Origin: an uncultured Chthonomonas sp.
GTDB taxonomy: Bacteria; Armatimonadota; Chthonomonadetes; Chthonomonadales; Chthonomonadaceae
Assembly (NCBI GenBank): GCA_903859705.1
Contig: CAIONQ010000004.1
Span: forward strand, 1 to 61,990
Length of the DNA: 61,990 bases
Direction of reading: 5' to 3'
The position numbers were made by a program, and so were the translations under genes. Below, piece after piece: positions 14,548 through 61,473 of the stretch. The notes below the pieces were generated by a model. It ran no database searches. It was not told the DNA's origin and saw only the letters and a program-made list of their open reading frames with translations. Within the stretch, counting starts at the first letter, position 1. Each line of letters starts with the position of its first letter.

Positions 14548-15021
14548 CTACACCTCAACACGCGAGTACGCTTCCTCATACATCTCATCACTGCATCCAA
14601 AGTATCGCACTACACGTGCGGAGAAGTCTACTTCATATCTCACTACACCGGCATCCCAGCTTGCCTCCAGGAACTCTTCGAAGCTGCCTTCACCGGCCTG
14701 GTCCGTTCGCAACGCCGCAATGAGGGCCTCGCGGTTGAATGGAGGCACGGCAACCATGCCGGTAACCAAGGGCTTTCCAACCACTGTTACTGAGCCGCTC
14801 TCCGTTATAAACAGGCTCTGGCAGGAAGGAAGGTACCAGGAGTTACGCGTTACTCCTGCTTGTCGCATGGTTTCGGCAAAATACGGGAACCCGCCTACTT
14901 TGGGGCGGTTTGCCGTGGCCCGTAGCAGAGCACCCTGTAAATTATCGATTGCATTGGCCACAGTAATAAGCTCCGTTTCGTTGTTCGGTGGTTCAGTCCA
15001 CCGGCACATCATTCCAGCCAT
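14548..15021 (-). CDS. DUF1398-like protein
   Basis: Up to 157 residues. The central and C-terminal parts (GGFPYFAETMRQAGVTR, LPSCQSLF, ALIAALRTDQAGEGSFEEF, AGVVRYEVDFSARVVRYFG) fit the DUF1398 / YbcV-like family, whose function is unknown. It overlaps the end of the MarR gene by 29 bases, so the two are translationally coupled and presumably repressed together. Several in-frame ATGs lie within the overlap; the first is listed. MarR-controlled partners are often stress or drug-response proteins, which is only a context hint. Confidence 0.7.
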   Translation of the reverse strand: MAGMMCRWTEPPNNETELITVANAIDNLQGALLRATANRPKVGGFPYFAETMRQAGVTRNSWYLPSCQSLFITESGSVTVVGKPLVTGMVAVPPFNREALIAALRTDQAGEGSFEEFLEASWDAGVVRYEVDFSARVVRYFGCSDEMYEEAYSRVEV

Positions 15022-15454
15022 GGCTCTGCGCCACTTTCTGCAGCAGGTACCTTAGTTGGCTCTGTTCATGTATATCCAGGCAGCCGAAGTAGTTTGCATC
15101 GTTTTGGTCCGCACACATTGCCAATTCCGGCAAGATGCGGCTGCCCTCTGCCGTAAGAAAGAGGCTGTGGCTGCGCTTATCTTCTTCTCTTACAATCCGC
15201 CCGGTGAGCCCTTTGGCCTCCAGCTTGTCGATTATTTTGGAAGTTGCTCCGCGCGTCGTGCCCATAAGTTCCGCTAAGTCGGCCGGGGTGATATCGGGAT
15301 GATCAAATAGTTGGCGCAGCGCCACCCACTCTGCAATGGTGAAATGTCGGTGTTGTAGAGCTCTGGCAAACGAACCGGATACATGGTTAGAGACATGCCG
15401 AAGCCAGTAACCCAGATGAACCTCCAAATTTGAGACCAGTTGATCATCAGTCAT
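14993..15454 (-). CDS. MarR-family transcription regulator
   Basis: 153 residues. The winged helix is clear: ITPADLAELMGTTRGATSKIIDKLEAKGLTGRIVREEDKRSHSLFLTAEG contains the recognition helix and the DxRS wing of MarR proteins. Flanking helices form the dimer interface. It binds DNA as a dimer and normally releases it on contact with small phenolic or oxidising compounds. A perfect palindrome inside its own promoter (15500-15520) points to autorepression. It is the first gene of an operon with the DUF1398-like gene. Confidence 0.9.
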   Translation of the reverse strand: MTDDQLVSNLEVHLGYWLRHVSNHVSGSFARALQHRHFTIAEWVALRQLFDHPDITPADLAELMGTTRGATSKIIDKLEAKGLTGRIVREEDKRSHSLFLTAEGSRILPELAMCADQNDANYFGCLDIHEQSQLRYLLQKVAQSHGWNDVPVD

Positions 15455-15496
15455 CTTATCACGTCTCTCGCATAAAGTTTCCCAGGAAACTATAAT

Positions 15497-15527
15497 AGTA
15501 TAGTTACCTGGGGTAACTATTTGTCAA
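15497..15527 (-). promoter_or_regulatory. Promoter of the MarR operon
   Basis: Minus-strand -35 TTGACA (complement of 15522-15527) and -10 TATACT (complement of 15497-15502), separated by 19 bases. The start codon is 43 bases downstream. The spacer is slightly long, a common feature of regulated promoters, and is filled by the palindrome at 15500-15520. Confidence 0.6.
15500..15520. promoter_or_regulatory. Probable MarR operator (perfect palindrome)
   Basis: ATAGTTACC-TGG-GGTAACTAT: nine-base arms, no mismatch, three-base centre. It lies between the -35 and -10 elements of the MarR promoter. Length and symmetry suit a winged-helix dimer, and repression of its own operon is inferred. Confidence 0.7.
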
Positions 15528-15660
15528 GGGTATAACACACACTCGTAATGAAATCTACAATCTCGTCGCGAACTGTGTGGGAAACCCAGCGGCCATTCAG
15601 ATCTCCCCACGCTGCTTTTTTAGCTGGATGTGCTCTTCCATTAACTCCGAAAGTGTCTAA
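15517..15660 (-). pseudogene. Possible N-terminal scrap of an IS3-like transposase
   Basis: A minus-strand frame reads PAKKAAWGDLNG and then VSHTVRDEIVDFI. This resembles the opening residues of a group of IS3-type transposases that continue into a tryptophan-rich helix-turn-helix. The resemblance stops at about 15530, the frame ends at 15517, and nothing downstream continues it; the MarR promoter begins there. No terminal inverted repeats were found. The match is from memory of the family and is weak. Confidence 0.35.
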
Positions 15661-15990
15661 CGATAGTGATATCGGTATAAGCAATCTGCCTAAAATAATC
15701 CGCGGGAATACAGTATTTGCTGTATTGATTATCACCTCCGCTCTAAGAACAGTGCCTCAGTACCGGTGGTTCTCTTTACCGTCACTTCTTTTGTGCGCTG
15801 TAGGGCTAATGCGCAGCGTTTGGTTACTGTTTCGTAAATTACGCAGCCGAGTTCCGAGTTCGCAAGAAGAAGGAAAGTGGTATGGCGGCTATATTTCCCA
15901 GGGGATAACCAGAGGCGGTGGCCGCACACAGTGTAAACTACACTCATATTTTATCCCGGCAAATTATTCAACACTTAAACTGGTAGCAAT
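15661..15990. other. Intergenic, nothing recognised
   Basis: 330 bases between the transposase-like scrap and the stop of the DeoR-type gene. A plus-strand frame crosses it, but its composition is not protein-like and it has no ribosome site. Confidence 0.4.
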
Positions 15991-16887
15991 TTAGTAGTCG
16001 CTGTCTCGAACAACGGCATGTTCCGTCAGTAGCAGCTCCATAGAGGCTTCGGTATAGGTCATCTCTGTTCCATACGCCTGCAGCCTGTCTCGCAGTGCTT
16101 CCAGCTGTTCTGTTTGCTCTTCGGTAAGTGTTTCGGTAACAAGCTTTACGCGCTTGCCATGCAGCGCCGCACCGCCAAAGTTCCACGGGTGGCGGCGGCC
16201 AAGCTTGGTGCTATCCACAGTAATAACCACTTCTGGCGCTACATTCAGAACCTGCTTCAGGAATGCCGCCTCTTCTGCCCTGTGGGAAAACAGATCCAGC
16301 AACCCCGCACCCGGCCCGGTGCCCAGCAACACGCCGCTGGCGCCAACTATTGCAAGGCTGGGCTGAAATGCACTTCGGAATTCGGAGGTGTGCAGAGCGC
16401 AATCTTCCGGGGAGTAGATTTCGCCAAGCACTCCGGTGGATATTCCGGCAGCAACCATCTCCAGCAACGAAGGAATACTGTTTGTAAACACAATAAGGTT
16501 GTGCGGCGGCTCCGCCTCCACTGCTGCGCGGCGAATTTCACAGGCCACAGCGTAGGGCGTGCTGCCCGCTGTAAGGGCAATTGCCTGGTCATCCGCAAGC
16601 GATTTCACAACATGGGTTGCAATGGCTCGCTTGGCAACGGTGCGCCGATCCAGCTGGTTGGTAAAGTAGCCAGGGCTGTAACCCACGCGCGCAACCTGAA
16701 CCTTGCCCCGCCGCAGTTCTAAACCATTGATGGAGTGGAATAGCTGCTGCAGGCTATCGATATCACGGCGGATCGTTCGCTGATCACACCGCATCGCCGC
16801 GGCAAGAGTTTCCAGTGTCTGCGGCTCTTCGTGGCGTGCAAGCAACTCCATGAGCTGCATACGTCTCGCATCTGCCTGTTCCGCCAT
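15991..16887 (-). CDS. DeoR-family transcription regulator
   Basis: 298 residues from ATG 16887 (MAEQADARR), preferred because AAGGAA precedes it; an earlier in-frame start at 16944 adds 19 residues of poor quality. The N-terminal helix-turn-helix (LETLAAAMRCDQRTIRRDIDSL) and the C-terminal DeoRC sensor domain (GSTPYAVACEIRR, NLIVFTNS, VTVDSTKLGRR) are both present. The DeoRC domain usually binds a phosphorylated sugar. The gene lies 163 bases downstream of the beta-helix gene on the same strand, and an inverted repeat at 16927-16956 could be its operator. Confidence 0.82.
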   Translation of the reverse strand: MAEQADARRMQLMELLARHEEPQTLETLAAAMRCDQRTIRRDIDSLQQLFHSINGLELRRGKVQVARVGYSPGYFTNQLDRRTVAKRAIATHVVKSLADDQAIALTAGSTPYAVACEIRRAAVEAEPPHNLIVFTNSIPSLLEMVAAGISTGVLGEIYSPEDCALHTSEFRSAFQPSLAIVGASGVLLGTGPGAGLLDLFSHRAEEAAFLKQVLNVAPEVVITVDSTKLGRRHPWNFGGAALHGKRVKLVTETLTEEQTEQLEALRDRLQAYGTEMTYTEASMELLLTEHAVVRDSDY

Positions 16888-58827: not shown

Positions 58828-58870
58828 AGGCGCCTGCAGCAGATTAGCTGCAGGCGCCTTATTCGTTTTT
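58828..58870 (+). terminator. Terminator after the 71-residue gene
   Basis: AGGCGCCTGCAGC (58828-58840) pairs 13 of 13 with GCTGCAGGCGCCT (58847-58859), followed by TATTCGTTTTT. Confidence 0.85.
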
Positions 58871-61440: not shown

Positions 61441-61473
61441 AAAAGGGCAGAAGCGTTAAGCTTCTGCCCTTTT
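61441..61473. terminator. Bidirectional terminator between the NTF2-like gene and tRNA-Pro
   Basis: AAAAGGGCAGAAGC (61441-61454) pairs with GCTTCTGCCCTTTT (61460-61473), 14 of 14, with T-runs on both sides, so it can stop both the plus-strand gene and the minus-strand tRNA. Confidence 0.88.

Follow-up and report, generated by a model that had tools for sequence, protein, structure and literature searches.

A MarR-family regulator gene and a DUF1398 gene lie in tandem on the minus strand of the window, i.e., the whole 61,990-nucleotide stretch of uncultured Chthonomonas sp. DNA analyzed here, behind a promoter region that carries two palindromic sites, O1 and O2. The same gene order and a matching arrangement of sites were found in related operons, including those of distantly related bacteria. 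Very probably, marR and DUF1398 form a single operon under autorepression from tandem operators, released by a ligand: MarR would bind to both sites and repress a transcript shared by the two genes until the ligand relieves it. The self-repression and the ligand control are proposed by analogy with the MarR family. As judged from sequence comparison, this would be a switch of an ordinary type, with good support from its relatives, built around a recurrent gene pair.

The marR gene (14993..15454, minus strand) encodes a 153-aa protein with a winged-helix MarR domain, scoring 51.4 bits against Pfam PF01047 (cut-off, 24.6 bits; E = 1e-13). It matched 51 distinct PDB sequences at E ≤0.001, the best being HosA (8aga). 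Against the NCBIfam models of the named equivalogs Saro_0803, BilQ, MprA, HpaR, SlyA, and MarR, it reached at most 47.8 bits versus cut-offs of 120 to 240 (200 for the best-scoring model). It shares a winged-helix domain and a promoter dyad with the autoregulated repressors MarR, HosA, and Saro_0803, but differs from them in operator sequence and partner gene, and its scores are far below the equivalog cut-offs. An inverted repeat overlapping the -10 is described for the nov1 promoter in the excerpt available of PMC10046596.

Upstream of marR, we found the 21-bp palindrome of the preliminary description, the candidate operator O1 (15500..15520), which reads ATAGTTACC-TGG-GGTAACTAT and has perfect 9-nt arms and a 17-bp core (15502-15518). 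It had been placed exactly between a -35 and a -10 box, which needs correction. On the minus strand, a -35-like TTGACA (15527-15522) and a -10-like TATACT (15502-15497), both read off directly as consensus matches, are separated by a 19-bp spacer (15521-15503), and the palindrome shares its last three bases with the beginning of the -10 hexamer. A spacer of 19 bp is long for sigma-70, making the promoter call weak, and a consensus promoter scan allowing 16- to 18-bp spacers did not report this promoter. The -35/-10 assignment also depends on assumed promoter rules for Armatimonadota.

A perfect repeat with 9-bp arms (loop, 0 to 8) appeared in 6 of 3,000 dinucleotide-shuffled versions of the 150-bp region preceding marR. 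The shape alone is commonplace, with nine perfect repeats (arms ≥9, loop ≤8) in the window versus about two expected; the strongest of the window, at 61441-61473 and 58828-58859 (arms of 14 and 13), are possibly terminators. O1 had no further match in the window at three or fewer mismatches (0 in 100 shuffles), and its nearest other sites in the 6.24-Mb genome were three places with three mismatches each, none having two or fewer.

The preliminary description had taken this palindrome for a single operator, overlooking a second, imperfect inverted repeat, the candidate operator O2 (AGTTTCCTGGGAAACT, 15476..15491). O2 is palindromic at seven of eight positions and agrees with the related-operon consensus at 15 of 16, a match equaled in 3 of 20,000 dinucleotide shuffles of the same 150-bp region. 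It lies downstream of O1 at a center-to-center distance of 26.5 bp, i.e., about 2.5 helical turns, so that the two sites would face opposite sides of the helix. With TATACT as the -10, transcription would start near 15490, beneath O2. When strand-swapped, O2 resembles O1 minus one base, the plus strand of O1 agreeing with the minus strand of O2 in 12 of the 13 bases that precede a 1-nt gap. Compared with the related family site, O1 has ACC/GGT instead of TCC/GGA in its arms and is 17 instead of 16 bp long, differences that could alter or abolish binding. The extra base keeps its score to the family consensus below 12/16. Its position is that of the upstream operator in related operons, than which it is 1 bp longer, suggesting that O1 may be a variant of the 16-bp family site with one more base.

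The closest MarR relatives (42 to 49% identity) were found on alphaproteobacterial plasmids and in a second genome of the phylum, G200, which held the only MarR match above 40% (42%) beyond the window's own among the 291 phylum genomes searched. The best 15 plasmid matches listed were 44 to 49% identical to the window MarR and all came from Alphaproteobacteria. In a tree, the window MarR grouped at 94/97 with DUF1398-linked MarRs (42 to 49% identical). With the Azospirillum MarR as the query, 22 plasmid records matched at 51% or more, and the remainder of the 60 matches listed fell to 36% or less; the Azospirillum DUF1398 also recovered 22 plasmid records. The two lists have 21 records in common, in which the coordinates place the genes side by side. 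AP023275 gave a MarR match only, yet its fetched region has a DUF1398 fragment, and CP091035 has a short DUF1398 without a MarR of this clade. We compared 11 of the 22 MarR-clade plasmid records, the remainder being mostly their close strains. DUF1398 lies downstream of marR in all 11 plasmid loci and in G200, being broken in two, among loci that mostly represent one class and include several close strains. No MarR or DUF1398 relatives were found among viral contigs, and the window DUF1398 had no match among phage records.

The promoter arrangement recurs with the gene pair. Pairs of 16-bp sites, AGTT(G/T)(A/C)CTAGGAAACT, precede marR in G200 and in each of the 11 plasmid loci, one site being degraded in one locus. 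We drew up a consensus, AGTTKMCTAGKMAACT, by eye from these same loci and scored every 16-mer upstream of marR against it. All 12 relatives (the 11 plasmid loci and G200) had a site of at least 13/16, and 11 of them had two, with starts 24 to 26 bp apart; the exception is L058, whose second site is degraded. The upstream operator of most relatives contains TTGAC, whereas in the window the -35 lies outside O1. The exact palindrome is absent upstream of the related marR genes, but a pair of related 16-bp sites is present at the same place. The proposal of a MarR operator in the marR-DUF1398 promoter, checked here against the promoters of related marR genes, is therefore supported by the conserved gene order and the matching place of the sites, though in altered form, with a conserved pair of sites instead of a single operator of this exact sequence.

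A search with the 15-bp core at no more than one mismatch in ten plasmid records and G200 found almost all matches at the marR promoter, the exceptions being W01:866953 and W04:731764. The 17-bp pattern has a single exact match in the window genome. For the 16-bp pattern there is one other exact match, at C125:26352 inside open frames. A wide regulon in this genome was rejected on these grounds, and a regulon beyond the operon is unlikely. Loose patterns with two mismatches hit 303 and 267 places versus 243 and 171 for the reversed controls; since these controls also gave hundreds of places, we used exact matches alone. Upstream of marR and in the same direction is a DeoR-type regulator gene (16944-15991, minus strand) with its own promoter-like TTGACA-18-CATAGT at 16976-16947. 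A plus-strand frame at 15548-15994 was considered as a divergent partner and dismissed, having no Pfam match; nor do the annotated relatives have a divergent gene in common.

In the proposed mechanism, the core promoter and start site would be covered by two MarR dimers, one on O1, spanning the -35/-10 region, and one on O2, at the expected start of transcription. Occupied operators would then repress marR itself together with DUF1398, and a signal, probably a small molecule or a stress product, would release MarR. MarR could also be an activator rather than a repressor. One such reading starts from the fact that MerR-type activators re-shape promoters: in the long 19-bp spacer, in which the palindrome is centered, MarR might act likewise. 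This is very unlikely, as most relatives have TTGAC within the upstream operator, where binding should block the polymerase, and as O2 in the window covers the expected start site.

Two further readings concern the sites themselves. The scores given above, 15/16 for O2 and below 12/16 for O1, would suit a promoter in which O2 alone is the MarR operator and O1 is a chance or unrelated palindrome, e.g., the site of another regulator. However, O1 sits where the upstream member of the pair sits in relatives, it shares nearly the whole aligned stretch with O2 on the opposite strand, and a repeat as perfect as its own rarely arises in shuffled sequence; we therefore consider this unlikely, if less so than the activation by re-shaping. 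The O1 and O2 halves can also pair with each other (14-nt arms, 93% complementary, 4 nt apart), as would suit repeats that function in RNA as a hairpin or attenuator, unless they are simply due to chance. But a start near 15490 would leave the O1 half untranscribed, the sequence is conserved across operons beyond mere pairing, and a terminator-like site sought there was not found, so that we regard this last reading as extremely improbable. The tandem-operator reading agrees with the conservation of the site pair in the relatives.

A DUF1398-like gene does lie beside marR on the same strand, as had been described, with 34.2 bits against PF07166 (cut-off, 22 bits; E = 3e-8). The two genes had also been said to overlap. 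A frame does open inside marR, at ATG 15021, and would give 157 aa, but the alignment and the gaps in related operons favor GTG 14961, which gives 137 aa (14548..14961, minus strand) and scores 34.8 bits against PF07166. The alignment to L043, a lone relative with a 64% identical DUF1398, begins at this GTG, which is preceded by GGAG and stands 31 bp past the marR stop; six annotated related operons have marR-DUF1398 gaps of 30 to 40 bp. The G200 frames abut or overlap by a little. Hence, the gene probably starts at GTG 14961, and the two genes need not overlap.

The predicted fold of the window DUF1398, from a model built from two sequences only (pLDDT 77), resembles that of E. coli YdfO (2hh8) with a Z score of 13.6 and an rmsd of 2.5 over 122 residues. 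Foldseek also matched the model to YdfO (E = 1.6e-5; TM, 0.73/0.78), suggesting a YdfO-type fold. YdfO came from the fold search, as a sequence search of the PDB with DUF1398 returned nothing. Structure matches below YdfO (Z ≤4.2; GAF, sliding clamps) were not accepted as relatives.

The MarR-DUF1398 pairs on plasmids of Azospirillum, Novosphingobium, Sphingobium, Methylocystis, and Rhizobiaceae thus resemble the window in their MarR (42 to 49% identical), the adjacent DUF1398, and the paired operator-like sites 25 to 26 bp apart. They differ in that the upstream site mostly contains TTGAC and in that their DUF1398 belongs to another subfamily. In a tree of 21 proteins, the ten MarR-linked DUF1398s split from the rest, including that of the window, at 100/99. 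The window DUF1398 shares 65 to 72% identity with lone DUF1398s from the same family and order, which have no MarR of this clade within a flank of about 1.5 kb, and the only plasmid MarR-linked DUF1398 reaching E 1e-3 with it was that of L056 (28%). By these comparisons, the window DUF1398 is of a different subfamily from those paired elsewhere with this MarR. Forcing all MarR-linked DUF1398s together was not rejected (p-AU, 0.122). The DUF1398 trees were made without L035 (internal stop), L041, L059 and L063 (broken), and L043 (same contig as L036), and the second tree also without YbcV, the second L068 protein, and the L065 fragment. A loose operator pattern had 0 exact matches at 15 lone DUF1398 loci (two on one contig), a weak control, given that 3 of the 12 linked loci lacked a match as well.

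Because the MarRs cluster while the DUF1398 tree splits and a single origin was not rejected, the DUF1398 partner may possibly have been exchanged beneath one conserved regulator. It would go further to propose that two different DUF1398 subfamilies have become attached to a single MarR lineage and its two-site promoter, making DUF1398 a dedicated partner and not a passenger, a tentative idea that we consider doubtful. If it is true, DUF1398 perhaps senses, makes, or removes the signal of MarR, or antagonizes MarR directly. As DUF1398 is without known function, a putative inducer of MarR would point to its role, and the operator consensus would allow the MarR-DUF1398 pair to be located, and its control probed, in cultivable hosts such as Azospirillum or Novosphingobium.

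Likeness in fold links the window protein to the E. coli DUF1398 proteins YdfO, YbcV, and YcgX, by way of the model matched to YdfO. The gene for YbcV differs in its setting: it belongs to prophage DLP12, where its neighbors are borD and ybcW, and the 10 kb examined there contain no annotated MarR. According to the portion available of PMC4077768, YdfO belongs to the Qin prophage, ydfO is induced by an imidazolium ionic liquid, and YdfO overexpression, as cited there, raises oxidative-stress resistance. The accessible part of PMC7660256 describes ybcV as a PdhR target of unknown role whose mRNA is 10-fold lower without pdhR. In the extracts at hand, DUF1398 is a table entry in PMC11510482, PMC11206351, and PMC8711792 and is named in PMC11457142. 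A literature search, in which subscription papers were mostly absent, found no published MarR-DUF1398 operon, and the operator sequence words led to no bacterial paper and to one unrelated muscle paper.

Several of the related loci carry damaged DUF1398 genes. In six records of the Agrobacterium vitis group, the gene is in two pieces (at 3503-3903 in L059 and 3000-3326 in L063), and marR is open in both compared plasmids of this group despite the broken DUF1398. Among Armatimonadota-like relatives, the L035 DUF1398 has an internal stop, and that of L041 lies in pieces in different frames. The DUF1398 gene seems to be readily lost. Two lone DUF1398 genes, L037 and L042, share a contig of a relative (G012:C86) at a distance of about 1.9 kb, near a gene whose product looks PIN-like by eye. 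Upstream of marR in L059 and L063 are genes for a response regulator, a PhnA-like or hypothetical protein, and a DUF892 protein, neighbors that may hint at a stress role.
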